Source: Methanobacteriaceae archaeon (lineage in GTDB: Archaea; Methanobacteriota; Methanobacteria; Methanobacteriales; Methanobacteriaceae). From it: a DNA stretch of 40,298 bases. Below are positions 4,555 through 36,600 of this stretch, piece after piece. The notes beneath the pieces were generated by a model. That model was not told the origin of the DNA. It worked only from the letters and a program-made list of their open reading frames with translations, and did not search any database. Position 1 is the stretch's first letter, and each line of letters begins with the position of its first letter. The stretch covers positions 1 through 40,298 of the forward strand of contig JAHFBZ010000009.1 of assembly GCA_023249725.1 (NCBI GenBank). The letters run 5' to 3'. The translations under genes were made by a program, and so were the position numbers.

Positions 4555-4581
4555 ATGAGCAGGAGTGAATGTTTTTGGTGA
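4555..4581 (+). CDS. Possible leader peptide ORF overlapping the trpE start
   Basis: ATG at 4555 opens an eight-codon frame, MSRSECFW, stopped by TGA at 4579-4581. It has the better ribosome site: AGGTG at 4545-4549, five bases before the ATG. The last codon is TGG (Trp). The frame overlaps the GTG start of trpE (4565), which itself lacks a well-spaced Shine-Dalgarno sequence. This could be a coupling or sensing peptide, or chance. No protein evidence is available. Confidence 0.3.
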   Translation: MSRSECFW

Positions 4582-5932
4582 TATTAAATTAAACGCCCTT
4601 AAAACAATACCATTGGATTTTAAAGATCCATTTGAATTATTTAAAAAGATTTATTCTAAATATTCCAGTACTTTTTTATTAGAGTCCATGGAAAGTGACA
4701 GTGGGCTGTCCAGATATTCTTTTTTAGGGTTTAAACCAGAATTAACCCTAACTGCCAAAGAAGGATTTTTAGAAATTAAAAAAGAAGATGCTGTAGAAGA
4801 ATTTGATACAGAAAATCCTTTCAATGAAATAAGATCATTAATCCACAAGGGAAACAATAGAAAAGGATTCTGCGGGGGTTTGGTGGGATATGTTTCTTAT
4901 CAAGCGGCCCGATTTTTTGAACAAGTCAATTTAAGCCCTGGAAAATTTCCTGATTTTGAATTTGGTTTGTTTTTAGACGGAATTATATTTGACAAGCTTT
5001 CCAGCCGCTGCCAGTATGTTACTCTGGGCCAGAATCGGGTGGAAGAAGTTCTAAGGACTGCTAGAGAAGATTATATCTTAGAAGACAAAATGTCTTTTAA
5101 GAATGATGGAAGATTTTTCTCACAAAACCAATACGAAAAAATGGTTTTAGAGACAAAAGAAAGAATAAAAGAAGGCGAAATATTTCAAGGGGTTATTTCC
5201 AATGCCCAAAAATACAAAATTTCTGGCAATAAACTCTGTTTCTATGATACTCTAAGAAAAATGAATCCTTCTCCTTACATGTATCATGTGAAACTTGATG
5301 AGAGGGAAATAATTGGATCCAGCCCAGAAATGCTGGTTCGAGTTGAAAATAGGGAAGTAGAAACATTTCCTATAGCTGGAACTCGTCCTCGTGGTGAAAA
5401 TACTGCTTATGATAATCAACTGGCCCAGGATCTTCTTAATGATGAGAAGGAAAAAGCAGAACATTTAATGCTGGTGGATCTGGCCCGTAATGACGTGGGA
5501 AAAGTCAGTGATTTTGGAACAGTTAAAGTACCAGAATATATGGATATAAAGAAGTTTTCCCATGTCCAGCATATTTTATCAAGGGTAACTGGGAATTTAC
5601 AAAAAGAAAAAACTGCGGTCGATGCATTCTCAGCCATATTCCCTGCAGGAACGGTCAGTGGCGCTCCAAAAATAAGGGCCATGGAAATTATTGAAGAAAT
5701 GGAAGTTCAGCCTCGTGATGCTTATGCTGGAGCTTTAGGATACTTTTCATTAAATGGAAATGCTAATTTCGCTATCACCATTCGTTCCATGGTTTGCCAG
5801 GGGAAAAATGCTAAAATACAGGCCGGAGCAGGAATAGTTCATGATTCAGTTCCAGAAAATGAGTTCATGGAGTGCGAAAACAAGGCCCGAGCGTTAGTTA
5901 GCTCATTGGAAATGTCAGGTGATTCTAAATGA
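4565..5932 (+). CDS. trpE: Anthranilate synthase component I
   Basis: TrpE (455 residues) makes anthranilate from chorismate using ammonia supplied by TrpG. The N-terminal half has 'FLLESMESDSGLSRYSFLG'; the LLES motif is the tryptophan feedback-inhibition site. The chorismate-binding half has 'GSSPEMLVRV', 'PIAGTRPRG', 'DEKEKAEHLMLVDLARND', 'FPAGTVSGAPKIRAMEII' and 'QAGAGIVHDS', all expected. The GTG start gives the family-typical N-terminus MNVFG, but no Shine-Dalgarno sits at normal distance; the AGGTG at 4545-4549 serves a short overlapping ORF better. The gene ends in an ATGA overlap with trpG, so translation of the pair is probably coupled. Confidence 0.96.
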   Translation: MNVFGDIKLNALKTIPLDFKDPFELFKKIYSKYSSTFLLESMESDSGLSRYSFLGFKPELTLTAKEGFLEIKKEDAVEEFDTENPFNEIRSLIHKGNNRKGFCGGLVGYVSYQAARFFEQVNLSPGKFPDFEFGLFLDGIIFDKLSSRCQYVTLGQNRVEEVLRTAREDYILEDKMSFKNDGRFFSQNQYEKMVLETKERIKEGEIFQGVISNAQKYKISGNKLCFYDTLRKMNPSPYMYHVKLDEREIIGSSPEMLVRVENREVETFPIAGTRPRGENTAYDNQLAQDLLNDEKEKAEHLMLVDLARNDVGKVSDFGTVKVPEYMDIKKFSHVQHILSRVTGNLQKEKTAVDAFSAIFPAGTVSGAPKIRAMEIIEEMEVQPRDAYAGALGYFSLNGNANFAITIRSMVCQGKNAKIQAGAGIVHDSVPENEFMECENKARALVSSLEMSGDSK

Positions 5933-6609
5933 TATTAATAATTGACAACTATGATTCATTCACCTACAACCTCTTCCAAATGGTTGGGGAGATAGTTCAG
6001 GAACTTTTTAATGATTCTAATGAAGAATCTAACGAATCTAATAATGCATTTAATAATACTAATATTAATGGCATTAATATTGACCCGGATTTAGTTAAAT
6101 CGCTCTCTCAAATAAAGGTTATTCGGAATGATGAGCTGAATTTATCTCAAATAAGAGATTTAAATCCAAATAAAATTATTATTTCCCCAGGACCAGGTAA
6201 TCCCATTAATGAAAGAGATTTTGGAATATGTAAGGATGTAATTGAAAAATTGGGAAAGAAAATACCTGTTTTAGGAGTTTGTCTAGGGCATCAAGGCATA
6301 TTTTCTACATTTGGAGGAAAAATCATTAAAGAAGAACCAGTTCATGGAAAACAAAGTGAAATATTTCATGATGGCACTGGCTTATTTAATGAGGTTTCCA
6401 AGCCATTAATAGCTGCTCGATACCATTCTTTGATTTGTGATTCTCAAAGTACGCCGGAATGCATTGAAATCACTTCCAGAACTAAAAATAATATTATAAT
6501 GTCTTTAAAACATAAAAATTATCCTATTTTCGGTTTCCAGTTCCATCCAGAATCTATTGGAACCTCTGAAGGTAATAAAGTCGTGAAAAACTTTTTGGTG
6601 ATGAAATGA
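5929..6609 (+). CDS. trpG: Anthranilate synthase component II (glutamine amidotransferase)
   Basis: This class I glutamine amidotransferase (226 residues) delivers ammonia to TrpE. It starts 'ILIIDNYDSFTYNLFQ', has the oxyanion region 'SPGPGNP', the nucleophile elbow 'GVCLGHQG' and the 'FQFHPES' motif supplying His and Glu of the triad. Residues about 28-58 form an Asn/Ser/Glu-rich insert ('NDSNEESNESNNAFNN' and following) not found in typical TrpG; it lies between the first strand-helix unit and 'KVIRNDEL'. The start overlaps the trpE stop (ATGA at 5929-5932) and its own stop overlaps trpC in the same way. Confidence 0.95.
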   Translation: MILIIDNYDSFTYNLFQMVGEIVQELFNDSNEESNESNNAFNNTNINGINIDPDLVKSLSQIKVIRNDELNLSQIRDLNPNKIIISPGPGNPINERDFGICKDVIEKLGKKIPVLGVCLGHQGIFSTFGGKIIKEEPVHGKQSEIFHDGTGLFNEVSKPLIAARYHSLICDSQSTPECIEITSRTKNNIIMSLKHKNYPIFGFQFHPESIGTSEGNKVVKNFLVMK

Positions 6610-7496
6610 GTCCTGAAATAACCAAAAAAGTAACTATTGATCAGATTCTTGAACAAAGAATGGTTGATTTAAAAAAATCAATGGCCAAAAGGCCACTTGC
6701 AGAAATCAAAAAGGATTCAAAAGATGCAGATGATCCAAAAAACTTTAAAAAAGCCTTAAAAACTAAAGAAACATTTCCTTTAATATGTGAATATAAACCA
6801 GCTTCTCCTTCTCTTGGAGATATATCTTCCAGAGGATTAGAAGAAACCTTAATGCTCTATAAATATGGTGGGGCCAGTGCTGTTTCTATATTAACTGAAG
6901 AAAAATTTTTCAAGGGAAATATTGAATTTCTGGATCAAGCTTCAAAATTAATTGATGTTCCTATTATGAGAAAAGATTTTCTTTTGGATGAATATCAAAT
7001 ATTTGAAGCAAGAGCTCATGGAGCAAGTTCTGTCCTTTTAATGAGTGGAATATATCCTGATATTTCATCGGGGATAGAAATTTGTCTTTCGTTGGGAATG
7101 GAACCTCTAGTGGAATGTAAAAATTCAATTGATGTTTTTAAAGCTATAGATGTGGATGCTGAAATCATAGGAATTAACAATCGCAGTTTTAAAGATTTCA
7201 GTATAGATTTAAAGAGGACCAAAGCAGTGGCCCCATTGATTCCTGAAGATATAGTTCTGGTTTCAGAAAGTGGTATAAACAATTTGGAAGACGTGAAAAC
7301 GGTTTGTGGCTATGGTGTTGATGCATTATTGATTGGAACCAGTGTAATGCAGTCTGATAATGTTGTAGAAACAATTCAGAGATTTATTCAAATGGCAAAA
7401 AATTCTTCTGAGCTTTATCACAAGTCGAATCCCAAAAAATCACGTGCACACGCCAAAAAAAGAACTGGAGATGGATCGTTTGAACAATTTGCTTAA
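6606..7496 (+). CDS. trpC: Indole-3-glycerol-phosphate synthase
   Basis: TrpC (296 residues) closes the indole ring from carboxyphenylamino-deoxyribulose phosphate. Active-site segments are intact: 'CEYKPASPSLG' (catalytic Lys), 'IMRKDFLLDEYQI' (second Lys), 'GINNR', 'VLVSESGI' and 'GTSVM'. It is longer than usual because of a basic tail of about 35 residues ('NPKKSRAHAKKRTGDG') with no recognised domain. The ATG overlaps the trpG stop. A 58-base gap follows before trpF. Confidence 0.95.
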   Translation: MSPEITKKVTIDQILEQRMVDLKKSMAKRPLAEIKKDSKDADDPKNFKKALKTKETFPLICEYKPASPSLGDISSRGLEETLMLYKYGGASAVSILTEEKFFKGNIEFLDQASKLIDVPIMRKDFLLDEYQIFEARAHGASSVLLMSGIYPDISSGIEICLSLGMEPLVECKNSIDVFKAIDVDAEIIGINNRSFKDFSIDLKRTKAVAPLIPEDIVLVSESGINNLEDVKTVCGYGVDALLIGTSVMQSDNVVETIQRFIQMAKNSSELYHKSNPKKSRAHAKKRTGDGSFEQFA

Positions 7497-7554
7497 AAAC
7501 CCTCAAAATCCTCAAAAAAGTTCAAAGAAATTTGATTGTTCTGGGTGATTTATA

Positions 7555-8340
7555 ATGTCAAAAAATAAAATCCAGGTTAAAATTTGTGGCATAACTCGTG
7601 TGGATGACTTAAAATGTGCCGAAACTCAAGGTGCAGATTATTTTGGATTTATTAATGTAAGGAGATCTCCCAGATTCCAGGATATGATCCAAATTCAAGA
7701 GATGTTGGGTGCAATTAATAATAAAAATAAGGCAGTCTTGGTTTTAGAACCTGAAACAACTGATGAAGCCTATGATACAATAGTAAAATCTGAAATTAAC
7801 AATATTCAACTCCATGGAATGGATTTAAATGGATTTAAGGAATTAAAAAATAGTCTAAATGAAGAAAAGGATTCTTCATCAATTTCTAAAAGAAATTCGA
7901 TTAAGGAGAATATATCTCCTAATATAACTGGAAATATAATTAATCTAATAACTGTTATAGGTCTTTCTAATGAACATGAAGATAGGTCTGGAAATTCTTT
8001 GGAAGAAACTAAAAAACATGAAATCATATCCTTTGCTGAAATTAGCGATGTTATATTATTTGATTTTCAAATTAAGGGAAAGAGTGGTGGAACTGGAAAA
8101 CAGATACCTATTACTTTGGCCATAGAATCTGCTAAAATTGCTAAAGCGGCTAATAATGATATTAAGATATTCTTAGCTGGCGGAATGGATATTAACCTGA
8201 TAAAAAAAGAAGGCAAGTTACTTAGTCAATTCTTCAATGTTATTGATTTCAATTCTTCCCTAGAGGATTCACCAGGAATTAAAAATAAAGACAAAATAAA
8301 AGAATTAATGCAATTAATTAAGGGATTTAACTGGCAATAA
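7555..8340 (+). CDS. trpF: Phosphoribosylanthranilate isomerase
   Basis: TrpF carries out the Amadori rearrangement of phosphoribosylanthranilate. The N-terminus 'VKICGITRVDDLK' holds the catalytic Cys; the catalytic Asp is in 'ILFDFQIKGKSGGTGK', and 'FLAGGMD' supplies the phosphate site. At 261 residues it is about 40-50 longer than typical TrpF, because of a Ser/Asn/Lys/Glu-rich insert (roughly residues 98-150) before 'ISFAEISDVILFD'. The TIM-barrel landmarks on both sides are intact, so the enzyme is probably active with a surface loop. Confidence 0.92.
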   Translation: MSKNKIQVKICGITRVDDLKCAETQGADYFGFINVRRSPRFQDMIQIQEMLGAINNKNKAVLVLEPETTDEAYDTIVKSEINNIQLHGMDLNGFKELKNSLNEEKDSSSISKRNSIKENISPNITGNIINLITVIGLSNEHEDRSGNSLEETKKHEIISFAEISDVILFDFQIKGKSGGTGKQIPITLAIESAKIAKAANNDIKIFLAGGMDINLIKKEGKLLSQFFNVIDFNSSLEDSPGIKNKDKIKELMQLIKGFNWQ

Positions 8341-8463
8341 TGAATTTAATCTTAATAATGATTATCAATGCCCAATATCTACTTGGGGCGGTTAATATCA
8401 AATAATAATATCATATAATTCTAAAATACTCATTTAATTTAAATATAAAACTGTGGTGATGAA

Positions 8464-9645
8464 ATGATTATGGATGGAAAGTTTGGAAAATATGGGGGAA
8501 TTTTCGTCCCGGAATTAATTATTCCAGCACTTGAAGAGCTTGAAAGTGCATTTTTAAAATATAAAGATGATAAACAATTTAATCAGGATTTAGACTTCTA
8601 CTTAAAGGAATTTGCAGGAAGGCCCACTGGCCTGTATCTGGCCAAAAACCTTTCAAAAAAATTAGGATGTAAAATATACCTCAAACGGGAGGACATGCTC
8701 CATACTGGTGCCCATAAAATAAATAATACTCTAGGTCAGGGATTATTGGCCCGATATATGGGTAAGGATAGAATAATAGCTGAAACGGGCGCGGGCCAGC
8801 ATGGAATTGCTACGGCTGCTGTCGGGGCCATGTTGGACATCCCAGTGGATGTTTATATGGGTAGTGAGGATGTGGATCGGCAGCGTCTTAATGTCTTTAG
8901 AATGGAAGTTTCTGGTGCAAAGGTGATTCCGGTAGAAAGCGGTGCCAGAACGCTTAAGGATGCAATAAATCAGGCCATGAGGGACTGGATTACTAATGTG
9001 GAAAATACTCACTATTTGATAGGCTCTACTATGGGCCCTCATCCTTACCCTGCCATGGTAAAACATTTCCAAACCATAATTGGAAAAGAATGCCGTAAAC
9101 AAATTTTAGAACTTGAAAATAACCTTCCAGATACAATTATTGCTTGTGTTGGTGGTGGAAGTAATTCTATTGGTATATTCTCAGAATTCGTGTCTGATAA
9201 GGATGTGGATTTGATTGGTGTGGAAGGTGGTGGAAATGGAATTGAAAGCGGCCATCACGGTGCCACTCTATGTGCCGGAAGTGAGGGAGTTCTGCATGGA
9301 TCATTATCTTATGTTCTGCAGGATAATGATGGCCAGATTACTGAAGCCCATTCGGTTTCTGCAGGATTGGATTATCCTGGTGTAGGACCAGAACATTCCT
9401 ACCTTAAAACTATTGGAAGGGCTAATTATGTTTCTATTACTGATGAAGAAGCCCTTAAAGGATTCCAGCTTTTATCCAAGTATGAGGGCATAATGCCTGC
9501 CTTAGAAAGTGCTCATGCGGTGGCCTATGCTGAGAAATATGCTAAAATGCCGGAAAATAAGGGAAAAACAATCATAGTGAATCTTTCGGGAAGGGGAGAT
9601 AAAGACATGTTTTTAGCGGCTAAATTTCTGGGGGTGGAAGTATGA
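8464..9645 (+). CDS. trpB: Tryptophan synthase beta subunit (TrpB1 type)
   Basis: TrpB (393 residues) condenses indole with serine using PLP. '[14 protein letters not shown]' contains the PLP lysine (Lys85), 'ETGAGQHG' the catalytic Glu loop, 'GGGSNSIG' the phosphate-binding loop, and '[19 protein letters not shown]' the COMM-domain-side motif of TrpB1. It is adjacent to trpA and of normal length, so it is the TrpA-partnered form and not TrpB2. GGTGAT lies just upstream; an alternative ATG six bases downstream (8470) would be spaced slightly better. The 123 bp before it hold no recognisable gene. Confidence 0.97.
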
Positions 9646-10517
9646 GTGAAAATATTGGTGAAGATTCTAACAAATCAACTTCTAAAAACTTAACTTCTAA
9701 AAATTCACTTTCCATAGAGAGCTATGAAAAAATGTTTAAAAGAGTTGAAGCCAAAAATGAAGGGGCCTTCGTTCCTTTTGTGGTGGCTGGAGACCCGGAC
9801 TTTGATACCTCACTGGAAATTGTGAAAACTCTGGTGGAAAATGGAGCGGATGCCCTGGAAATTGGATTTGCATTTTCAGACCCTATAGCTGATGGACCTA
9901 CTGTTCAAGATGCAGATGTAAGGGCTATTAATTCAGGAATGACTACTGATAAAGGATTTGAGTTTATTCGAAGAATAAGAGAATTTACTTCTATTCCTAT
10001 TGGTCTGCTGGTCTATTATAATCTAATTTATAAAAGAGGTATAGATCTTTTTTACAAACAAGCACATGAAAATGGCCTTAATGCTATTTTATCTGCTGAC
10101 TTACCTCCCGAAGAAGCATCAGATGCTGTAAAAGCTGCTAGAACATATGGTGTTAATCAGATATTTTTAGCTGCCCAGACCACTACCAATGAACGTCTGA
10201 AAACTATTTCTCAGTTTTCCTCAGGTTTCACCTACTTGGTTTCGGTTATGGGAGTCACAGGGGCCAGGAGTGAGGTTAAAACCAGTACGGTAGACCTTAT
10301 AAAAAGAGTAAGAGCACACAATGACTTGCCTTTAATGGTGGGCTTTGGTATTTCAAAACCTTCACATGTGAAAGAGGTCATTAAGGCCGGTGCAGAAGGG
10401 GCTATTGTAGGCAGTGCTATTATTGATATAATTGCTCAAAATATTAATCAAAAAGAGAAAATGCTGGAAGAAATTGGAGATTACACCCGGAAGCTAAAAG
10501 AGGCCACAAAAAAATAG
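9642..10517 (+). CDS. trpA: Tryptophan synthase alpha subunit
   Basis: TrpA (291 residues) splits indole-3-glycerol phosphate and passes indole to TrpB. Catalytic residues are in '[20 protein letters not shown]' (Glu of EIG and Asp of SDP). '[10 protein letters not shown]' and 'GAIVGSAII' form the phosphate site. A Ser/Asn/Lys-rich N-terminal extension of about 28 residues precedes the barrel. Its ATG overlaps the trpB stop, in keeping with a co-translated alpha-beta complex. Confidence 0.96.
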
Positions 10518-10630
10518 TATAACGATAGGAACTAAAAGTTCAAAGCTGATAATGAACCTATGGACATTTTCAGCCACTATTCTATTATTATTCAATTATT
10601 CAAAATATTTAAAATAAATAAGGTGATTTG

Positions 10631-11677
10631 GTGATTACATATATTCAAAAAATAGTTTCTGGGAAAGATTTAAGTGAAGATGAGGCCTTTCAATGTATGG
10701 GGGAGATGATATCTGGAAATGCCAGCGATATTCATATAGCTGCCCTTTTAGCAGCCTTAGCCACCAAAGGTGAAACTGTAGATGAAATAACTGGTTTTGC
10801 TAAGGCCATGAGAGGAACCTGTACTCCCCTTAATGTTTCTAAAGATGTGGAATTAGTTGATACTTGTGGTACTGGGGGCGATACCCTTAAAACTTTTAAT
10901 GTAAGTACTGCCGCAGCTGTAATTGCTTCTTCGGCAGGAGTTAATGTGGCCAAGCATGGTAATCGGGCAGTCACCAGTTCCTGTGGTGGTGCGGACATAT
11001 TAGAAGCAGCAGGTGTTAAAATTGACGCTTCTCCTGAAATTGTATCTAAATGCCTGGAGGAATCAGCCATGGGGTTTATGTTCGCTCCTAATTTTCACCC
11101 AGCAACCCGAAATGTAATGCCTGTCCGCCACGCTTTAGGTATAAGAACAGTTTTCAATATTTTAGGCCCACTAACATCTCCTGCTGGAGCTAAAATACAA
11201 CTTTTAGGAGTATTTGATGCTAATTATGTGCAAATAATGGCTAATGTTCTTAATAATCTTGGTGTCGAGCAGGCCATGGTAGTACATGGTTTTGATGAAA
11301 AGGAAGAAGAAGGAATGGATGAAATTTCCAATGTTGGTCCTACACTGGTTGCATTTGTTGATCAGGGTAGTATTGAAATAAAAAAATTAAATCCTGAAGA
11401 TTTTGGAATTCAAAAAACTAAAAGTGATCTTATTAAGGCCCCGGAAACTCTGGAAGAAAATCTTGAAATTTTTCTGGATGTTTTAAATGCTAAGAACGAT
11501 TCTATCGTTGACAAAGCTCGTTTAGAAATTGCTCTGGCCAATGCCGGCGCTATTATATATTTATCCGGAAAGTCCAATAATTTGATTGAAGGAACTGAAA
11601 TTGCTTATCAAGCCGTTAAATCTGGAAAATCAATTGAAAAATTAAGAGAATTTATTAAAATCAGTAAATTAGCATAA
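10631..11677 (+). CDS. trpD: Anthranilate phosphoribosyltransferase
   Basis: TrpD (348 residues) joins anthranilate to PRPP. It has 'DTCGTGGDTLKTFNVSTAAA', 'VAKHGNRAVTSSCGGADIL', 'HPATRNVMPVRHALGIRTVFNILGPL' and 'DEISNVGPT', all family hallmarks. A TTG at 10628 would be one base after the AGGTGA ribosome site (10621-10626), so GTG at 10631, four bases after it, is the better start. It is last in the cluster, 113 bases after trpA, giving gene order E-G-C-F-B-A-D as in Methanothermobacter. Confidence 0.96.
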   Translation: MITYIQKIVSGKDLSEDEAFQCMGEMISGNASDIHIAALLAALATKGETVDEITGFAKAMRGTCTPLNVSKDVELVDTCGTGGDTLKTFNVSTAAAVIASSAGVNVAKHGNRAVTSSCGGADILEAAGVKIDASPEIVSKCLEESAMGFMFAPNFHPATRNVMPVRHALGIRTVFNILGPLTSPAGAKIQLLGVFDANYVQIMANVLNNLGVEQAMVVHGFDEKEEEGMDEISNVGPTLVAFVDQGSIEIKKLNPEDFGIQKTKSDLIKAPETLEENLEIFLDVLNAKNDSIVDKARLEIALANAGAIIYLSGKSNNLIEGTEIAYQAVKSGKSIEKLREFIKISKLA

Positions 11678-13542: not shown

Positions 13543-14451
13543 TTATTTTACTCGGTGTCTTACACGCACAGCCACACCATTGGATGCTTTAACCATTTCT
13601 TCACCATTTAAAACAGCTTTACCGACTCCCACTACGTTTCCTTTGTTAAGAATGATTACTTCATCTTTGGGGACTATTTTAGGGTCTGCATCAAGAACTC
13701 CTGGAGCAAATAATGTATTCGTTTTCAGATCAAATTCAATATTAACCCATTTAGCCCCTATTTCAGACAAAATGCGCCCACCTGCAAGACTCAAAGAATA
13801 TACTCCATTATCCATTAATAGGGCGGCAATCTGTTCGCTGTCATGGAATATCCTTTTGTGATAACGTCCTTTCACATGACAATCGTCAGGTATAAGTGTT
13901 TCACCGCCTGGACCAAATTGATATGTGGCCAGTGATCTTAATCCATTTAGAAGTTTTTCACGTGCCGGAATTTTCCGGTATTTTTTAATATGGTCTTTAA
14001 GATTTTGCATTGATTCATGTGATATGGGACGCCCATCTTCACAAGTGAAAACGCAATCATCCAGATATTCTTCGCACACCTCTCGGTATCCTCCGGCAAC
14101 ATGAGCTAAAACTTCTTTATCTCCCACATAATCTCTTAAAACTTCACCAACAACTTTTATTTCTTCATGAGACCAATCACCTGTTGTGGAAACATCGTAA
14201 GATTGTATGGGAAAAGTTTTTTCCATCTCTCGAGGACAAATACCAAAGGGGGATGTTAATATAACTTCTTGAATACGTTTACTAACTCTCATAAAAATTT
14301 GATGGGATTTGGAGTTGGAATAAGGTTTTCTCATACTGCAGGGGAGAATAACTACAGCTTCTCCCAGAGGTTTTAATAAACCCATTCTATTTCTCCATCT
14401 AACGGCCTCAGGCCTGTAAAGTGACTCTTCACTGGAACATAGAACTTTCAT
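13543..14451 (-). CDS. arcS: Archaeosine synthase ArcS, short form (core plus PUA)
   Basis: The protein has the ArcS signature PC-x3-KPY-x2-S-x2-H exactly: Pro37-Cys38, Lys42-Pro43-Tyr44, Ser47 and His50. ArcS converts preQ0 at tRNA position 15 into archaeosine. The C-terminal ~85 residues ('IGAKWVNIEFDLKTNTLFAPGV...RHRVK') are a PUA RNA-binding domain. At 302 residues it lacks the large TGT-like N-terminal part of full-length ArcS, so it is a short/split form; a separate gene would have to supply the rest if needed. 'EVLAHVAGGYREVCEEYL' is a conserved linker. Confident in family, less in completeness. Confidence 0.87.
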   Translation of the reverse strand: MKVLCSSEESLYRPEAVRWRNRMGLLKPLGEAVVILPCSMRKPYSNSKSHQIFMRVSKRIQEVILTSPFGICPREMEKTFPIQSYDVSTTGDWSHEEIKVVGEVLRDYVGDKEVLAHVAGGYREVCEEYLDDCVFTCEDGRPISHESMQNLKDHIKKYRKIPAREKLLNGLRSLATYQFGPGGETLIPDDCHVKGRYHKRIFHDSEQIAALLMDNGVYSLSLAGGRILSEIGAKWVNIEFDLKTNTLFAPGVLDADPKIVPKDEVIILNKGNVVGVGKAVLNGEEMVKASNGVAVRVRHRVK

Positions 14452-14585: not shown

Positions 14586-16082
14586 TTAAATTAACCATTT
14601 AACATGGGCCAATTTTGAAAGTTCATTGTTTAAAGATATTAAGTCATCTTTATTGAGTTTATGAATATCATTTTTGCCAATTATACGAATAAATTCTACA
14701 ATTTCTTCATTTGATAATTTTATGAAGTTTTCAAGCTTTTGAATACTTTCTGGAACGTTTAATTCTTCCAAAAGTTTGGATTTATGGGTAGTTATGCCTG
14801 TGGGACACTTCCCGGTGTGACATATCCTGTGCTGCTGGCAGTTTATGGCAATTAAAGCAGCAGTTCCTAAGTATACTGCATCAGCCCCTAATGCTAAGCA
14901 TTTGGCCATGTCTGCTGAGGTTCTTAAGCCTCCTCCGGCAATTAAAGTAACTTTATTTTTGGCTATGATTTCTTGGTTTGAATTTTCTCCTTGATTTTCC
15001 AGTTTATTTAAAATATGTGCAGCTCTGGGCAATGCAGCAATAAGTGGTAAACCCACATTTTCCCTTACAAAAGCATCAGTACCTCCGGTACCTCCCCCAA
15101 AACCATCAATAGATATAAAATCGACTCCAGCTTCAAATAGAATTTTTATATCGTCTTCGATATTCCCACAACCAATTTTGGCCCCGACGGGAACTCCATG
15201 AGTTATTTTTTTAATCCATTTAATCTTATCCTTAATTTCAACTGGAGTTTCCATGTCTGGATGATGTGCTGGTGAATAAGCTCCTTCACCTTTTTTAAGG
15301 TTTCTTACTTGGGCCACTTCAGGATTAATTTTGTCTGATGGTAAGTAACTACCTTTCCCAGGATATGCTCCCTGCCCAAATCTTATTTCAACCGCTGAAG
15401 CTTTTTTTAATATTTTTTCAGTCAAACCAAAACGTCCAGTTGAATATTGGACTATTAATTGTGAAGATGCCACTTCCATTTCTTCTTTGGTGACACCTCC
15501 TTCTCCAGAATTAAATCCGATATTAAGATTTTTAGCAGCATGTGAAATCACTGTCCTGGTTTTTCCAGAAACAGCACCATAACTCATACCAGAAATTAAT
15601 ATGGGAGAACTAAGATGAAGGGGTTTTTTGGCCTTTGAACCAATTGAAATATTTATTTTAACATTCTGTTTTTTGTTAAGTGGTATTTTGCTAATCTGAG
15701 CTGGAATAAAATGGAAATCATCAAAAGAAAATGGCATCTTTTTAGGAGATCCCATGGAACGAACCACACTTTTTCCAGTTTCGGCCATAGTTTTTATGTC
15801 TACCATTTTTTGATAAGAAACAGGGTCTTCCTCGTTTTTCTTTTTCCTCATTAGAACAAAAGCGTCTCCTAAAAACTCCTTATCACAGAAATAATGTCCT
15901 CTTAAATCATACTCAAAATATACTGAGCAAGATTTGCATAGACACCCTGCTTCACGGATTTCCAGAAGGCTGCTGCCCCTAGAACAATATAAACTCTCTC
16001 CAGGACATTTATGTGGGTAACTAGGGCATTTTTTACAGAGACACTTAATTCTATTTTCTTCAGTGTCGGGTACCTGAATCAT
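14586..16082 (-). CDS. FMN-binding glutamate-synthase-like protein with N-terminal Cys-rich DUF2769-type domain
   Basis: Residues about 1-75 are Cys-rich (CLCKKC...CSRG...CLCKSC...CD), resembling DUF2769. The remainder is the FMN/Fe-S synthase domain of glutamate synthase: 'PILISGMSYGAVSGKTR', 'NSGEGG', 'GAKIGCGNIEDDIKILFEAGVDFISIDGFGGGTGG', 'IAGGGLRTSADMAKCLALGADAVYLGTAAL', and the 3Fe-4S motif C-x5-C-x4-C in 'NCQQHRICHTGKCPTG'. It lacks the amidotransferase and GXGXG domains, so it needs partner subunits to make glutamate or catalyses another reaction. An AGGAG site supports the start. It is 156 bp downstream of the rubredoxin-TPP enzyme on the same strand, possibly co-transcribed. Confidence 0.88.
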   Translation of the reverse strand: MIQVPDTEENRIKCLCKKCPSYPHKCPGESLYCSRGSSLLEIREAGCLCKSCSVYFEYDLRGHYFCDKEFLGDAFVLMRKKKNEEDPVSYQKMVDIKTMAETGKSVVRSMGSPKKMPFSFDDFHFIPAQISKIPLNKKQNVKINISIGSKAKKPLHLSSPILISGMSYGAVSGKTRTVISHAAKNLNIGFNSGEGGVTKEEMEVASSQLIVQYSTGRFGLTEKILKKASAVEIRFGQGAYPGKGSYLPSDKINPEVAQVRNLKKGEGAYSPAHHPDMETPVEIKDKIKWIKKITHGVPVGAKIGCGNIEDDIKILFEAGVDFISIDGFGGGTGGTDAFVRENVGLPLIAALPRAAHILNKLENQGENSNQEIIAKNKVTLIAGGGLRTSADMAKCLALGADAVYLGTAALIAINCQQHRICHTGKCPTGITTHKSKLLEELNVPESIQKLENFIKLSNEEIVEFIRIIGKNDIHKLNKDDLISLNNELSKLAHVKWLI

Positions 16083-16238: not shown

Positions 16239-18026
16239 TTAGATAAATCTTCGGGGGTCGGTCTGAATATCTACAATTGTTGGCAAATCTAATCCAAGGG
16301 CTTCTTCAACTTTTTGTGGAAGTTCGTCAGGACTGGTGACTTTTATTCCTACTCCACCGCAAATTTCAGCAAATGATGCAAAATTGCAGTTTAGCAGTTC
16401 GGTCTGCCAATTGGGATAGCCTTCGACTTTTTGTTCTTGTTGAATCATTCCTAATTGGTTATTATTTAATAAAAACACTTTAATGGGCAGATTATATTTG
16501 ACTGCAGTTAAAAAATCAGCCATTACCATTGAAAATCCACCATCTCCAGTTATACAAACTACTTCCTTTTCAGGATATGCAATTTGGGCCGACAGAGCTG
16601 CAGGAAGTCCAAAACCCATGGTAGCTAAGGAGCCAGACATTGCCATTTTCTGACTTTTTTTCATCTGGAAGTTACGGCCAAACCACCATGCATTTTCCCC
16701 AACATCCAGCGTGATTATTCCGTCATGGCTTAATTTATCATTCAAAACTTTCATGATATATTGTGGCCGAATAGGGCTTTTTGAAGAGTCAATTTCATCT
16801 TTAATGAGATTAGACCATTCCGATTTTAATAATTTAATTTCTTCTTTATATTCTAAACGATTCTGAAAAACTAATTTATCAAGCAGCGCGGGTAAAATAA
16901 CAGAACTATCTCCTAAAAGGCCTACTTCTACCGAATGTTTTCTCCCAATCATCATGGGGTCTTTATCTATTTGTATGGTTCTTTTAGGGGGGATTTGTGT
17001 CATGTCCGAATATGAAGAACCAATTACAATTAATAGATCGGAGTTTTTTACTAATTGAGATGCAGAACTGGATCCAATAGTCCCATGACCACCCACACAT
17101 AGTTCTTCATCTTCATCAACCACCCCTTTCCCTCGGAAAGTGGTAACTATGGGTGAGGTTATTTTTTTAGCCATTTCTAATAAAATATCACCCTGGTCCA
17201 TTGCTCCAAAACCAGCAATAATCACGGGCCTTTGAGCGGAATTTATTGTTTCAGCAGCCTCTTCCACTAATTCATTTGCTGGGGAAAGATTTGTTTGGGG
17301 GATTTTGCCATTTAAAGGAATTAGTTTCGTCTCATATTTCTGTTTCTGCACGTCATTGGGAATTGAAATATGGGAAACTCCTTTTTTTATTAAAGCCTCT
17401 TTAATAGCCAGCGTAGTTAACAATGTGGTCTGATCTTTGTGAATAATTGGCTTATTAAAAACAGAAACTGGCTCAAAAAATGAGTGCTGGTCAATTTCCT
17501 GAAAAGAACCAGGTCCTATAAGCTGTCTTTTCACCTGCCCAGTTATTGCCAGAACCGGAGAATGGTCAAGTTTTGCATCATAAAGTCCCGTGCTGAGATT
17601 AGTGGCCCCTGGACCGGCTACAGTAAGACAAGCAGCTACTTTTCCAGTTAATTTTCCATAAGCTGATGCCATAAATGCTGCAGTTTGTTCGTGCCGAACC
17701 TGATAATATTTTAAAGAGTCAGAGTCTTTAATACCTTGAAGAACACCTAAAGATGAGGTTCCAGGAATTCCAAATACATATTCTACGCCCCATTCTGCCA
17801 TTTGATTTACCATTACATGGGATACAGTGGAATGCCCTAAATCCATATCTTCTGAAATACTTTCTTTATTAATGTCATTTTCAGAATCCAGGGATAATAA
17901 TTCAAACGATTTCTGGGAAGCATTACAAACAGGGCATCTCCAGTCTTCTGGAAGTTCTGAAAATGGAATTTCTTTTATTTCATCATCATAAATGTAATTG
18001 CAAACTGTACATTGATATTTAACCAT
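16239..18026 (-). CDS. Rubredoxin domain fused to a pyruvate-oxidase/acetolactate-synthase-like TPP enzyme
   Basis: Residues 1-45 are a short rubredoxin (Cys6, Cys9, Cys31, Cys34; loop between the two pairs shortened). After a 20-residue acidic linker comes a complete TPP enzyme: PYR domain with catalytic Glu113 in 'RHEQTAAFMASAYGK' and 'TVAGPGATNL', a central domain ('RPVIIAGFGAMDQGD'), and the PP domain with 'ITGDGGFSMVMADFLTAV...NNNQLGM'. It resembles PoxB/acetolactate synthase. The rubredoxin could take electrons from the TPP-bound intermediate, implying oxidative decarboxylation of a 2-oxoacid, but this is inference. The start has a GAGGGGA site. Confidence 0.9.
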   Translation of the reverse strand: MVKYQCTVCNYIYDDEIKEIPFSELPEDWRCPVCNASQKSFELLSLDSENDINKESISEDMDLGHSTVSHVMVNQMAEWGVEYVFGIPGTSSLGVLQGIKDSDSLKYYQVRHEQTAAFMASAYGKLTGKVAACLTVAGPGATNLSTGLYDAKLDHSPVLAITGQVKRQLIGPGSFQEIDQHSFFEPVSVFNKPIIHKDQTTLLTTLAIKEALIKKGVSHISIPNDVQKQKYETKLIPLNGKIPQTNLSPANELVEEAAETINSAQRPVIIAGFGAMDQGDILLEMAKKITSPIVTTFRGKGVVDEDEELCVGGHGTIGSSSASQLVKNSDLLIVIGSSYSDMTQIPPKRTIQIDKDPMMIGRKHSVEVGLLGDSSVILPALLDKLVFQNRLEYKEEIKLLKSEWSNLIKDEIDSSKSPIRPQYIMKVLNDKLSHDGIITLDVGENAWWFGRNFQMKKSQKMAMSGSLATMGFGLPAALSAQIAYPEKEVVCITGDGGFSMVMADFLTAVKYNLPIKVFLLNNNQLGMIQQEQKVEGYPNWQTELLNCNFASFAEICGGVGIKVTSPDELPQKVEEALGLDLPTIVDIQTDPRRFI

Positions 18027-19957: not shown

Positions 19958-20848
19958 TTAAGCATCTCTACTTTTTCCACTAATATCACACTTTTTAACA
20001 ATTACTGCAGGAGTATGTGTAATAGAATCTAACATATCTATAGTAATATGATTAATATCTTCTTCAAATTCATTTTTCATGCTATAAACCGTTTCTAAAT
20101 GTCCTTCTAATGATTTTTGATAATTTTCAGCAATAGTGGCAATTTCCAGTGCTTTTTGAACTGATATTTTAGAAGAAGCTCCTAATGGTGTAGGCCCTAC
20201 AATTTTACCAAATCTACCCATTAAATATCCAAAAATCCCAGTATTTGACTTAATTCCATCTAGGGCAATAGGTAAACAAGTAAATTTTTTCCCAGCTAAT
20301 TGATAAGTAACATCTGTATCAATAATCATCACTAAAACGTCTTTTCTCCATTTTTTTTTTATTTGTACTGATAATTCTCGGGCTACTTGTTCTGGATGGG
20401 ATGGTAAAAGTGAAACCATTGCTCCAGGAACATTACTTAAATCTATTCCTGCTTCAGATGCTGGTTTTAAAGCATGTTTAAGACCATAATATTTTAAAAC
20501 GACTTCTTTGTGTGATCTTGATTCGGAGGGCAGTTTTCTAAGGTTTTTAATGGTTCTATTTTTGATTCTAAGAAGAGGACCCAAAAAATAACCCCATATG
20601 TATTTGGACCACACATCCGCTAAAAATATGGCCTTCAAAGAAGGCTTGAAATTAGATTCATCAACTAAACGACCCTGTGAAATGGATACTGGTGTTTCAG
20701 ATATGACTAAAAAATCATGATTCTCTAAAAAAGGCCCAGCTGTTTCAATAATAATGTCCAGGCTTTGATTAGGACGTATGTAATTCGTCTGCACTGGCTT
20801 TGCAATATATTTTTTACCATTAATTGAATTGGAATTATTTTTACTCAA
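19958..20848 (-). CDS. CofE-like (F420-0:gamma-glutamyl ligase family) protein
   Basis: The 296-residue protein matches the F420 ligase fold: '[16 protein letters not shown]' (cf. SETVVS in CofE), '[19 protein letters not shown]', '[16 protein letters not shown]', and 'GPTPLGAS'. It is about 45 residues longer than classical CofE, and several regions are diverged. In methanogens CofE adds glutamates to F420-0; this paralogue could act on F420 or on another gamma-glutamylated cofactor. Start is TTG at 20846-20848 with only a weak AGGAT upstream, so the N-terminus is uncertain. Confidence 0.75.
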
Positions 20849-22553: not shown

Positions 22554-23117
22554 ATGCAAAAAACCATTCATTATTTTGAAAATCCGGGGGAAAATAATAC
22601 TGATGAATTAATAGAATTAGTTAAAGCCAGAAAGGAAGGATTAGGTATTAAAACTATTCTTGTAGCATCAGTTTCTGGTAAAACGGCTCTTAAAATTGCA
22701 GAAAAAATAGATGATGTAACAATTGTGAGTGTTACTCATCATGCCGGGTTTAAAGAGAAAGGGCAGTTAGAGATAGATCCTGAAATTGAAAAAAAACTTA
22801 ATGAAAAGGATATTCATACTTACACCAGTTCGCATGCTTTAAGTGGGGTTGGCAGGGGAATTTCCAACAAGTTTGGTGGTGTCACCCCTGTAGAAATCAT
22901 TGCTGCAACATTTAGGATGATTTCTCAGGGTGTAAAAGTCTGTGTAGAAATAAGCATCATGGCTGCGGATGGAGGAATTATTCCAATGGACCAAGAGATA
23001 ATTGCCGTGGGAGGAACAGCTTGTGGAGCCGATGCAGCTGTTGTTTTAACTCCAGCCCATATGAATAGTATTTTTGATTTGAGAATACATGAAATAATAG
23101 CCATGCCACGACCTTAA
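22554..23117 (+). CDS. Pyruvate-kinase alpha/beta-domain protein
   Basis: The 187-residue protein is a stand-alone version of the pyruvate kinase C-terminal (alpha/beta) domain: '[21 protein letters not shown]', '[15 protein letters not shown]', '[14 protein letters not shown]', '[29 protein letters not shown]'. Archaea commonly encode such a protein; its role is unknown, but the '[10 protein letters not shown]' loop suggests binding of a small phosphorylated ligand. A good AAGGTGA site precedes the ATG. It lies upstream of ftsZ in the same direction with 233 bp between. Confidence 0.82.
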
Positions 23118-31991: not shown

Positions 31992-33503
31992 ATGAAGAAT
32001 CTAAAACCCATTTTAATATTATTGAGCTTTTTTGCAATATTGGTATTGTTTACAAGTGGTGTATCTGCTGCTAACTGGACCGTAAATCCTGGAGATAATA
32101 TTCAGTCAGCCATTAATAATGCTTCAGAAAACGATACGGTGACTATAAATGATAATAATGGAACGGACTATATCTATAATGAAAATGTAGTTATTAATAA
32201 AAAACTACAATTGCAGACTAATAATGGCGGGCGGGTAACTATAAATGCCTTAGATTCTTCAAAACCTGTTTTTACCATTAACTCCCCTGGAAATGGATCC
32301 AGTATTATTGGGTTTATAATTACTGGTTCTACCGGTTCTCATGGGATTTATGTTAATACAAATAACTGTCAAATCATTGGAAATACAATCTCAAATAATG
32401 GTGGTTATGGGGTTAATGTGGCTGGTACCAATGTTACTGTAATTAACAATATTGTGTTTAATAATGGTAATGCTGGTTTGGTTGTTAATGGTGTTAATGC
32501 GTCTGTTAAGTGGAATAATGTGACCTTTAATGGTAACCGTGGTTTTAATGGTTGGAGTTGGGATGGTATTAGTGTCACTGGTGCTAATGGGACGGTAATT
32601 GGGAATAATGTTACGGGTAATAGTAGGTCGGGTATTAGTGTGAATGGTGCTAATGCTTTGGTTTTCTTGAATTATTTGGTTCAGAATGGTGGTTATGGTA
32701 TTGGTGTAACGGGTGCTAATGCAACCGTTATTAATAATACTGTGGTTGATAATGGTAATGCTGGTATCGTGATTACTAGTGGTGATAATTCAACTGTTTC
32801 TAATAATACGGTGACTAATAATGGTAACCGTGGTTTTAATGGTTGGAGTTGGGATGGTATCAGTGTAACAGGTAATAATGCAATTATTACTCCGGATAAT
32901 GTTATTCATGATAATAGTAGAAACGGGCTTTATGTTCGTGGAAATAACATTTGTTTGACTGGGTTTAATGTTTATAATAATGGTGGTTACGGTATTGACA
33001 TAGCAGGGACTAATGCGACTGTGATCTATAACTGCGTAACTGGTAATGGTAATGCTGGTTTGGTTGTTAATGGTGTTAATGCGTCTGTTAAGTGGAATAA
33101 TGTGACCTTTAATGGTAACCGTGGTTTTAATGGTTGGAGTTGGGATGGTATTAGTGTCACTGGTGCTAATGGGACGGTAATTGGGAATAATGTTACGGGT
33201 AATAGTAGGTCGGGTATTAGTGTGAATGGTGCTAATGCTTTGGTTTTCTTGAATTATTTGGTTCAGAATGGTGGTTATGGTATTGGTGTAACGGGTGCTA
33301 ATGCAACCGTTATTAATAATACTGTGGTTGATAATGGTAATGCTGGTATCGTGATTACTAGTGGTGATAATTCAACTGTTTCTAATAATACGGTGACTAA
33401 TAATGGTAACCGTGGTTTTAATGGTTGGAGTTGGGATGGTATCAGTGTAACAGGTAATAATGCAATTATTACTCCGGATAATGTTATTCATGATAATAAG
33501 TAG
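31992..33503 (+). CDS. Beta-helix adhesin-like protein, N-terminal part (ends at a frameshift)
   Basis: This frame encodes a signal peptide (residues 1-27; hydrophobic 'ILILLSFFAILVLFTSGVSA') and then right-handed parallel beta-helix repeats rich in Asn, Gly, Val and Ser ('NATVINNTVVDNGNAG', 'ISVTGANGTVIGNNVTGN'), as in methanobacterial adhesin-like proteins. It stops at TAG 33501-33503 because of one extra A at 33498/33499 relative to the upstream repeat copy; the downstream frame (33460-38274) continues the same protein. If the extra base is real, this part alone is secreted as a 503-residue truncated helix without the C-terminal domains. Confidence 0.85.
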   Translation: MKNLKPILILLSFFAILVLFTSGVSAANWTVNPGDNIQSAINNASENDTVTINDNNGTDYIYNENVVINKKLQLQTNNGGRVTINALDSSKPVFTINSPGNGSSIIGFIITGSTGSHGIYVNTNNCQIIGNTISNNGGYGVNVAGTNVTVINNIVFNNGNAGLVVNGVNASVKWNNVTFNGNRGFNGWSWDGISVTGANGTVIGNNVTGNSRSGISVNGANALVFLNYLVQNGGYGIGVTGANATVINNTVVDNGNAGIVITSGDNSTVSNNTVTNNGNRGFNGWSWDGISVTGNNAIITPDNVIHDNSRNGLYVRGNNICLTGFNVYNNGGYGIDIAGTNATVIYNCVTGNGNAGLVVNGVNASVKWNNVTFNGNRGFNGWSWDGISVTGANGTVIGNNVTGNSRSGISVNGANALVFLNYLVQNGGYGIGVTGANATVINNTVVDNGNAGIVITSGDNSTVSNNTVTNNGNRGFNGWSWDGISVTGNNAIITPDNVIHDNK

Positions 33504-33626
33504 AAACGGACTTTATGTTCGTGGAAACAACATTACTCTAAGTGGATTCAATATCTACAATAATGGTGGTTACGGTATTGACATAGCAGGGACTAATGCG
33601 ACTGTGATCTATAACTGCGTAACTGG
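32462..33626 (+). repeat. Tandem 582-bp repeat within the adhesin gene
   Basis: Copy 1 starts at 32462, copy 2 at 33044 (offset 582), and a diverged third begins at 33627. Positions 32462-32916 and 33044-33498 (455 bp) look identical base for base by eye; identity then ends with one extra A in copy 2 at 33498/33499, followed by similar but diverged sequence. The unit encodes a set of beta-helix turns. Confidence 0.9.
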
Positions 33627-36600
33627 TAATGGTAATGCTGGTTTGGTTGTTAATGGTGCTAATGCGACTGTTAAGTGGAATAATGTGACTAATAATGGTT
33701 TCCGTGGTTTTAGTGGTTGGGTTTATGATGGTATTAGTGTCACTGGTGTTAATGGGACGGTAATTGGGAATAATGTTACGGGTAATGCTAGGTCGGGTAT
33801 TAGTGTGAATGGTGCTAATGCTTTGGGTTTCTTGAATTATTTGGTTCAGAATGGTGGTTATGGTATTGGTGTAACTGGTGCTAATGCAACAGTTATTAAT
33901 AATACTGTGGTTGATAATGGTAATGGCGGTATTGTGATTAGTAGTGGTGATAATTCAACTGTTTCTAATAATACGGTGACTAATAATGGTTATCGAGGTC
34001 TAAGTGGTTGGAATTATGATGGTATTTATGTTCGCGGAAACAGCATACAAATATTACAAAATTCTATTATTCAAAATAACTGGCATGGAATTAATGCAGT
34101 AGGCCTTAATTTAAATATTTCTGGAAATAACGTGACCCGTAATATTAAGGATGGTATAAATGTAAATGGTGCTAATGCGTCTGTCATAGGGAATAATGTG
34201 ACTAATAATATTGGCACGGGAGTTTACGTAACTGGTAATGGTGTAATTGTTTCTAATAATACTTCAAAAAACAATCAGTATGGAATTTACTTTTATAATA
34301 GTTATGGTGTAATTCGGAGTAATGATTTAATTGGTAACCAGTATGGAGTTTACCTTTCTAACTCTAATGCTACTATTAATTTCAACAGAATTATTGGAAA
34401 TAGTAAATATGGGCTGTATAATTCTGGTAATGGGATCATAAATGCAACAAATAATTGGTGGGGCTCAAATAATGGTCCAATAGTTTCATCAATCATGCCA
34501 AGTGATATTTATGTGGTCGGAGGAAATGTAACATACAATTCCTGGCTAGTTTTAAATATAACTGCCAGCCCTCCAAGTACGAATAATAGTTCCACAATTA
34601 CTGCAGATGTGACTCATAATAATGTTGGTGAAGATACTTCTTCTCAAGGAAATATTCCAGATAATATTCCAATAACTTTCGTCACGAATATAGGTACTAT
34701 AAACAGTACCTCATATACTCGAAGTGGAAAGGCAAATGTAATATTTAACCATGGAACCTCCATTGTAGGACTAGCAAATATTATAGCTACTTTGAATAAT
34801 CAAACTGTAATTACTAATGTCACAAAACCACTAACAGTTGCTGTTAGTCAAGTGGGAGGTTCTTATAATACTACTAAAAATGTGACCTTAACTCTGATAG
34901 AGCCAAACTGCAACTCAACCATCTATTATACTCTAGATGGTTCAGATCCTCGAGTAACTGGAATTGTTTATTCAAATTCTATTATAATTAACACTACAAC
35001 AACACTTAGATACGTTGCCGCTGACCCTATAATGAATTGGGGCCCGGAATACAACCAAACTTATGTAATAGACAATATTCCTCCAATAGTTAATGTAAAT
35101 ATTCATGGTGGTGTTTATAATACTACTCAAATTGTGAATTTGACTGTATTGGATAATCTTGATCAAAATCCAATAATATATTATACTACCAATGGCAGCG
35201 ATCCAACAATCTCAAGTCAAGTATATACTGGACCTATAACTCTTCAAATGAACTTTACTACTAGGAATATTTTTAATCTCAAATTCATGGCAGTAGACAG
35301 TTTGTGTAATCCGGCATTGATTCAAAGTGAAACTTATATTTTAACTCTTCCAGTAGTAAATACTCGTAATAACAACACCTATTCCTTGATTCAGAATGCT
35401 GTAGATGCTAACTCAACCATGGGTGGAGATGTCATTGAAATATATTCTGGAACATATGTGGAAACGGTTATGGTAAATAAAAAACTCTCAATTAAATCTG
35501 TTTTTGGAAATAATGTGACAATTGGTTCATCAGATCCAAATGGCAATATTTTTACCATAAATAATAATGGAAGCGATTCAGTAATTCAGGGTTTGAATAT
35601 AAATTGTAATATCATTTTAAATGCTAACAACTGCACTATCTACCAGAATAACATTATTGGAAATGGAACACACGGAATCATTACATCCAATTCATATAAT
35701 AACACTATATTATACAATACTATAACCTGTAATGGTTTCAATGGAATCCAAAGTAACTTTAGTTCCAATAACATTTATGGAAATACAATATCTGGATGTG
35801 AAAGTGGAATTTATTCTGAAAATTCGAATAATAGCATTGTCAGTAATATCTTGATAAATAATAACTATGGAATTTGGACCAATAATTCTACAGATACTAT
35901 CCACTTCAACAGGATAACTCAGAATACTTACGGACTTAGAAATGATATGGGCACTGTAAATGCAACTAATAATTGGTGGGGCACTAATAATCCAGGTTCT
36001 AATGATTTGTGGCTAGTAAGTGGAAATGTTACCTATGATCCATGGTTGGTTTTGAATTTAATTCCTTCAAACACTAATTCTGGTGGAAATGCCAGTGTGA
36101 CTGCAGATTTAACCCAGGATAACCATGGTGAAAGTACCTTATCTCAAGGATTTATTCCCGATGGAACAATGGTAAACTTTAATTCAAACTTTGGAACCAT
36201 TCTTAACACAGCATATACTATTAGGGGCCAAGCAGTGACTATTCTTAATTTGAATAGTACGCAGGCCCAAAATGTCACGGTTTCCGCTTCACTGGATAAT
36301 CAGTCGGTTTCTGCGACGGGACTGATATCCACGGGCTTTGCAGTGCTAAATGTTAATAGTACGGCCATAGATAATGCCACTGGCCTAACACTTAACACTA
36401 CCTACACCATACCTCTGAATAACTCGGTGACTTGGCTTAGTGTTCTCTGGATTAATAATGGTCTGTTCTCCGAAGAATTACAGATAATTGTGGATGGAAC
36501 GGTAGTGCAGAATAAGTACTTCTATAATGCTGCTTATACCACTTGGAACAGCACTTACTCACCATCTGTGTTTGCGGCGATTGTAGATGCTAATAAGAAT

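Follow-up and report, generated by a model that had tools for sequence, protein, structure and literature searches.

For the pyruvate oxidases POX and PoxB, decarboxylation on thiamine pyrophosphate (TPP) and reduction of FAD are established, and the electron acceptor of the known enzymes is quinone or oxygen; the C-terminal tail of PoxB serves in membrane and lipid binding. In acetolactate synthase (AHAS), the FAD is non-catalytic. Fusions of redox enzymes to small iron domains have been described elsewhere. In the Fusobacterium butyryl-CoA oxygen oxidoreductase, a rubredoxin (Rd)-fused butyryl-CoA dehydrogenase is reported to feed a flavodiiron protein (PMC12288474), and a survey of CDGSH proteins describes type 5 CISD, in which a tandem CDGSH is joined to the FMN domain of glutamate synthase (PMC3174974).

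The locus described here, which pairs an Rd-fused TPP enzyme with a glutamate-synthase (GltS)-like protein, lies in a 40,298-nucleotide stretch of DNA (hereafter, the window; contig JAHFBZ010000009.1, positions 1 to 40,298) from the 2.4 Mb draft genome, in 143 contigs, of a Methanobacteriaceae archaeon (GCA_023249725.1). A search that covered mainly open-access literature found no paper on the Rd-TPP fusion, whose novelty is thus unproven.

Architecture, clade and spread of the rubredoxin-TPP protein

A single open reading frame of 595 aa, occupying positions 16239..18026 of the minus strand including the stop codon, encodes both domains, as the first-pass annotation of this DNA had proposed; its product is referred to here as Rd-POX. 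The Rd domain (aa 1–45; 17892..18026, minus strand) was recognized by Pfam (Rubredoxin, PF00301, aa 3–41, E 2.9e-8) and by alignment, which shows the two CxxC pairs of the Fe(Cys)4 motif at C6, C9, C31 and C34. It is followed on the same strand by a linker of about aa 46–65 (17832..17891) that is predicted to be disordered (pLDDT <50 at aa 46–63), and by the pyruvate-oxidase-like TPP enzyme (aa 66–595; 16242..17831), which comprises TPP_enzyme_N (E 2.8e-38), TPP_enzyme_M (E 5.4e-32), a central domain of FAD type by homology, and TPP_enzyme_C (E 2.8e-40). The AlphaFold model of the protein has a mean pLDDT of 88.7. A promoter and terminator scan of the DNA, using a sigma-70 and not an archaeal model, performed no better than on shuffled sequences.

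The TPP part was initially labeled only as a TPP-dependent decarboxylase; NCBIfam ranking, PDB matches, fold and two trees place it more precisely, in the pyruvate-oxidase clade. The top curated NCBIfam matches were pyruvate oxidases, with acetolactate synthases behind them, and every cut-off shown exceeds the score of Rd-POX (521.5 against 742 bits for the equivalog NF006377, 377.4 against 637.85 bits for TIGR02720, and 369.9 against 792 bits for NF006591). A PDB sequence search returned Escherichia coli PoxB first and the Lactobacillus plantarum enzyme (LpPOX) second; Foldseek likewise ranked PoxB first for the model, and the VIA Z scores were 45.6 for PoxB, 44.7 for Corynebacterium glutamicum PQO, 44.4 for LpPOX and 43.0 for AHAS. 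Because the AHAS value nearly matches that of PoxB, fold alone is indecisive, and the trees decide. Tree 1, with 51 rows (nine from Methanobacteriota, 25 loci labeled as fusions, one split locus and 16 references), placed the Rd family within the POX/PoxB clade with support of 100/99 and carried a long-branch warning for LpPOX, MabTPP, Oxc and AlsS; tree 2 (26 rows), to which haloarchaeal rows were added and from which the longest outgroups were omitted, left the placement unchanged, with support of 100/100. Besides Rd-POX, the genome encodes two TPP homologues; one of them (C87) clusters with E. coli IlvI/IlvB outside this clade.

The alignment of active-site residues points the same way. Catalytic E113, GDGG at 494–497, N522 and E531 are invariant in alignment A2, the F of GDGGF being variable (for example, L in locus L109). 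Glu531, within GMIxxEQ, is of POX type, this residue being Trp or Gln in IlvI/IlvB, and V(F/Y)N occupies the position of the AHAS KH. Acetolactate synthase as the identity of the protein was rejected on both trees and on the lack of TKH and GMVxQWQ-type residues. From sequence, the TPP part thus belongs in the POX/PoxB clade and not with acetolactate synthase, which supports the earlier preference for a redox enzyme. Several features are peculiar to the family. Where LpPOX has Phe479 in its active site, the window protein has Met527 and the Rieske clade described below has Lys, and the Phe of FQE is variable, so that the substrate pocket differs from that of LpPOX. The motif DVGENxWWFGRNF is absent from the references, and the last residue, 595, aligns at position 533 of the 572 in PoxB, such that the final 39 residues, the PoxB C-terminal tail, have no counterpart in the model alignment. 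Because the cut-offs and two features fail, Rd-POX was not classed among the PoxB or POX equivalogs, though it probably works like one.

A scan of named genomes confirmed 120 candidates, and the best 80 of these 120 were used. Both CxxC motifs lie ahead of any stop before the TPP domains in 71 of these 80 loci, so the fusion is more than chance; of the remainder, eight lack the motifs and one (L132, in Candidatus Methanobinarius endosymbioticus) has the CxxC pairs only across a stop, which interrupts its Rd part early. Archaeal hosts among the best 80 of 120 include Methanobacteriaceae, Methanocellales, Bathyarchaeota, Altiarchaeota, Methanomethylicus and Thermoplasmata, together with the Methanomicrobiales genera Methanoregula, Methanoculleus, Methanospirillum and Methanolinea. 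The family therefore reaches beyond methanogens, for the most part in metagenome-assembled genomes, and these include some labeled Dehalococcoidia, Pelotomaculum and Actinomycetota, labels that may reflect contamination. By genome, Rd-POX is present in 22 of 151 Methanobacteriota (at least 50% identity to the window protein; one is a fragment) and in 106 of 199 sampled Methanomicrobiales (E<=1e-100, a count that includes rows without the Rd part).

The carrier itself varies in form. Two loci (L123 and L136) have a tandem double Rd, and 13 Methanoculleus-type loci have a separate Rd ORF of 65–67 aa ahead of the TPP gene in another frame, the TPP start being placed 20 nt into the Rd ORF in six, the upstream end being ambiguous in four and the start unfound in three. 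Five family loci have no Rd in the gene (L141, L147, L149, L154 and L155). A Methanofollis-like subgroup (L213, L214, L220 and L154) has the TPP enzyme without Rd, and at three of these four loci a conserved gene, which by eye resembles a PLP aminotransferase, lies directly downstream. In the closest relatives outside the family, namely WP_110798633.1, which is encoded on a Mycobacteroides abscessus plasmid, and proteins of haloarchaea, a Rieske domain (Pfam E 1e-11 to 2e-19) stands in the place of Rd. These proteins, annotated in databases as "thiamine pyrophosphate-binding protein", form a single clade (100/100), which is the sister group of Rd-POX (99/97). The haloarchaeal loci L291–L294 are situated among genes for MerA, DsrE, DUF3179, an M20 peptidase and TauE.

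The GltS-like neighbor and its linkage to Rd-POX

On the same strand, 156 bp downstream of Rd-POX, is a gene for a 498-aa protein (14586..16082, minus strand) that agrees with its initial description as an FMN/3Fe-4S protein with a Cys-rich N-terminus. It consists of a DUF2769 domain with two CxCxxC...C units (PF10967, E 2.3e-12; aa 14–66; 15885..16043) and a Glu_synthase FMN/3Fe-4S domain (PF01645, E 2.7e-109; aa 98–470; 14673..15791), and Pfam detected no glutamine amidotransferase domain in its 498 aa. Eight N-terminal Cys residues (C14, C16, C19, C33, C47, C49, C52 and C66) and the 3Fe-4S triad (C415, C421 and C426), which falls in the columns of the glutamate synthase motif CxxxxxCxxxxC, are conserved in all 16 aligned orthologues. 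The Lys of QGAKPG, Lys972 of ferredoxin glutamate synthase, which presumably binds 2-oxoglutarate, is absent, its position being Tyr240 in all 16 rows. The predicted structure has a mean pLDDT of 67.2, and its first 66 residues are below 50.

GltS-like proteins fused to a carrier domain form clades by carrier type, DUF2769 (100/100), Rieske (100/100) and Rd (99/99), which are jointly supported (100/99) and stand apart from other archaeal GltS rows. Near-duplicates and fragments, 18 of the 58 rows in all, were excluded from the first GltS tree, and the second comprised 30 of the first-tree rows plus six Rieske rows. A fourth type, with tandem CDGSH, was seen in Vibrio fortis and corresponds to type 5 CISD (PMC3174974); in the one example viewed, no TPP partner is annotated within 7 kb. 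In the literature examined, no function was found for the carrier-fused GltS-like proteins of the Rd, Rieske, CDGSH or DUF2769 type.

The first-pass annotation suggested that the two genes of the window could form a redox pair and proposed their co-occurrence in methanogens as a check. DUF2769-GltS is present in 19 of 151 Methanobacteriota genomes (at least 55% identity), 16 of which also hold Rd-POX (Fisher 4e-14, kinship ignored), and the genes are adjacent in four of the 16, at distances of 156 bp (G000), 158 bp (G139), 29 bp (G138) and 27 bp (G142). In a congener (L069; G140:C4:85281-86625), stops interrupt the GltS copy next to Rd-POX, and a 58% paralogue persists elsewhere. Six of the 22 Rd-POX genomes lack a close DUF2769-GltS, and three of these that were viewed (G015, G017 and G021) have only GltS with a ferredoxin-type N-terminus. 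In Methanomicrobiales, 47 of 199 genomes have an Rd-GltS-type match at E<=1e-80, that of G167 belonging to the DUF2769 type, and 37 of these 47 also hold Rd-POX (p 5e-5, kinship ignored). The two genes lie within about 1.2 kb of each other in six of these 37, convergently in G151, G152, G160 and G171, divergently in G159 and on the same strand in G315. No Rd-GltS-type match at E<=1e-80 was found in 69 of the 106 Rd-POX Methanomicrobiales genomes, where draft status may conceal some matches. Conversely, GltS occurs without Rd-POX in ten Methanomicrobiales and three Methanobacteriota genomes, and Rd-GltS is found in Methanobrevibacter-like genomes without Rd-POX.

In haloarchaea, the carrier on both proteins is Rieske. 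A phylum sample of 392 genomes contained Rieske-POX in four, Rieske-GltS in five and both in four, always on one contig (hypergeometric 5e-9, kinship ignored). In G625 the two genes share a strand, separated by 132 bp, and POX precedes GltS as it does in the window; the distance is 2.9 kb in G505, 3.2 kb in G472 and about 18 kb in G425; plasmid-borne pairs are about 4 kb apart in Halorarius, 1.4 kb in Salinirubellus and about 17 kb in Halorubrum. No Rieske-GltS was found on the Rieske-POX plasmids of Haloferax larsenii and M. abscessus. Since the haloarchaeal copies are close relatives, these pairs are not independent events.

The suggested pairing therefore stands in part: the association recurs in three archaeal groups, but because 69 of 106 Rd-POX Methanomicrobiales genomes have no such GltS, the pair is facultative and not obligate. 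It is possible, though doubtful, that the link reflects hitchhiking of genes that are common in anaerobic archaea or share a plasmid, with no shared function, as might be expected from the majority of Rd-POX genomes without a partner, from the unaccompanied Rd-GltS of Methanobrevibacter-like genomes and from haloarchaeal copies that are 84–95% identical, partly plasmid-borne and so not fully independent. Against this stand the adjacency in three groups, with three orientations in Methanomicrobiales alone (rough chance of at least three such adjacencies, 8e-5); the finding that all four Rieske-POX genomes also carry Rieske-GltS, always on the contig of Rieske-POX but at distances that vary; and the matching of carrier type on both proteins in two of the three groups.

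Wider gene context

Further genes of the window were noted. An ArcS-alpha-like gene (13543-14451, minus strand), a constant downstream neighbor in the mapped family members, covers positions 264–575 of the 575 in the archaeosine synthase profile, the N-terminal part not being in the ORF. A CofE-like ligase-domain protein (19958-20848, minus strand; 49.8 bits against the CofE cut-off of 180.65) is syntenic with TFE and an HD protein, and a stand-alone PK_C domain of the pyruvate-kinase C-terminal type (22554-23117, plus strand) is kept near the loci of relatives. A gene run resembling a trp operon occupies 4565-11677 (plus strand), of which TrpE (4565-5932) alone was confirmed by Pfam, and two large overlapping ORFs of 503 and 1604 aa with beta-helix/NosD repeats (31992-38274, plus strand) resemble surface proteins. 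The nearby comA raised the idea of a link to coenzyme M synthesis, which was rejected because the synteny is confined, among the loci mapped, to the window's own family.

Malic enzyme makes pyruvate, and in L123, L136 and L160 its gene immediately precedes Rd-POX in the same orientation, whereas in L153 the two are divergent; a fumarate-reductase-type flavoprotein follows in L123 and L136, and also a fumarase in L123. In 10 of 16 Bathyarchaeota-labeled loci, Rd-POX is divergent from or near a gene cluster annotated in L109 as thioredoxin-reductase-like, FlpD/Fer4, DHODB-FeS and NfnL/GltD-like. The neighborhood maps omit L162 and L165, two TPP enzymes of bacteria that lack Rd, and give "no K0" for L128, L144, L146, L148, L150 and L163.

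Other neighbors raise the alternative of oxygen or peroxide defense, in which the fused Rd would mainly feed flavodiiron proteins, rubrerythrins and ferritin-like proteins with electrons from pyruvate, GltS being incidental. Zip, Ferritin and Cyt-b5 genes are directly upstream of Rd-POX in four of six order-level relatives mapped (L074, L075, L077 and L078); a flavodiiron gene is near Methanoculleus-type loci (Pfam for L140); AhpC and rubrerythrin (L097), AhpC (L095), ferritin (L131) and Fe-SOD (L133) occur at other loci; and the window genome encodes ODP and rubrerythrin. The Rd-fused butyryl-CoA dehydrogenase reported from Fusobacterium offers a precedent (PMC12288474). In Methanomicrobiales, however, oxygen-defense genes within about 7 kb were found in four of 25 target windows, five of which had the TPP gene unmapped or poorly mapped (none in L216–L219; high-GC overlapping frames), against two of 50 controls (p 0.09, Fisher test), and three of the four target matches are one FDP gene type. 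Such outlets are possible, with no statistical support, and the differing contexts elsewhere (Nfn-like flavoproteins in Bathyarchaeota, malic enzyme and GltS-like genes) make oxygen defense as the main role rather unlikely.

Proposed function and comparison with known systems

Considering the domain make-up, clade, conserved residues and recurring gene linkage observed, Rd-POX is probably a soluble 2-oxoacid:rubredoxin oxidoreductase of the POX clade, with pyruvate as the most likely substrate. Its TPP would decarboxylate the 2-oxoacid, and its putative FAD would oxidize the intermediate by a two-electron reduction, as in POX/PoxB, both steps being proposed because Rd-POX lies in the POX clade. 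We infer that the electrons then exit singly through the tethered Rd, which would replace quinone or oxygen, from the finding that the carrier is conserved, split, doubled or substituted by Rieske. The acceptor would be the GltS-like partner where present, presumably in contact with Rd-POX, and other Rd acceptors elsewhere; a GltS-like protein whose N-terminus bears a metal domain, DUF2769 in the window and Rd or Rieske in other genomes, may thus be one electron partner.

A broader reading, which we regard as unlikely, is that of a carrier-matched archaeal system of two enzymes, in which electrons would pass from a POX-clade TPP enzyme via its fused iron domain to the metal domain of the GltS-like protein, which would spend them on a reduction, reductive amination for example, in a Stickland-like coupling inside one pair. 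The carrier would be Rd in anaerobes and Rieske in aerobic haloarchaea, the two having been swapped in step in Methanomicrobiales and haloarchaea. If such a system exists, DUF2769 would be an uncharacterized double four-Cys electron carrier.

If the proposed role of Rd-POX is right, a protein that most annotations call acetolactate synthase or TPP-binding protein would receive a named function. The organisms concerned are thought to oxidize pyruvate via ferredoxin-linked enzymes, to which a rubredoxin-linked exit for 2-oxoacid oxidation would be added. Carrier-fused GltS-like proteins (Rd, Rieske, CDGSH and DUF2769) would gain a testable role, and the parallel exchange of Rd and Rieske on both partners would constitute a natural experiment on carrier choice.

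That Rd-POX is instead a non-redox acetolactate synthase or other carboligase or decarboxylase, with Rd as a structural or redox-sensing appendage, is very improbable: AHAS folds rank next after those of POX, the Met of GMI resembles AHAS and AHAS has a non-catalytic FAD, but Rd-POX is separated from the AHAS clade by both trees, lacks the Trp/Gln and KH residues, coexists with a separate IlvI/IlvB-type homologue in its own genome and retains Rd or Rieske across distant taxa.

As a probable 2-oxoacid:rubredoxin oxidoreductase, Rd-POX shares with PoxB (3eya), LpPOX (1pox) and C. glutamicum PQO (9ev6) its clade, the three-domain fold, the catalytic Glu, the GDGGF TPP motif and the POX-type Glu of the C-terminal loop, and differs from them in its N-terminal Rd, the lack of a tail beyond PoxB 533, Met at the Phe479 position, the unique DVGEN motif and scores below the cut-offs. 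With the acetolactate synthases IlvB, IlvI and AlsS it has the TPP/FAD fold in common, whereas clade and active-site signatures differ. The Rieske-TPP proteins of haloarchaea and the M. abscessus plasmid are a sister clade with a one-electron iron domain likewise at the N-terminus, but this is a Rieske [2Fe-2S] and not Rd, and Lys stands at the Phe479 position. The Rd-fused butyryl-CoA dehydrogenase is reported to be a catabolic flavoenzyme and, like Rd-POX, has a built-in Rd, although enzyme and substrate are unrelated and its gene is bicistronic with that of a flavodiiron protein (PMC12288474). Type 5 CISD is described as a GltS FMN domain preceded by an iron-sulfur domain at the N-terminus (PMC3174974), an arrangement like that of the GltS-like neighbor and its Rd and Rieske kin, and differs from the neighbor in that this domain is CDGSH and not DUF2769.
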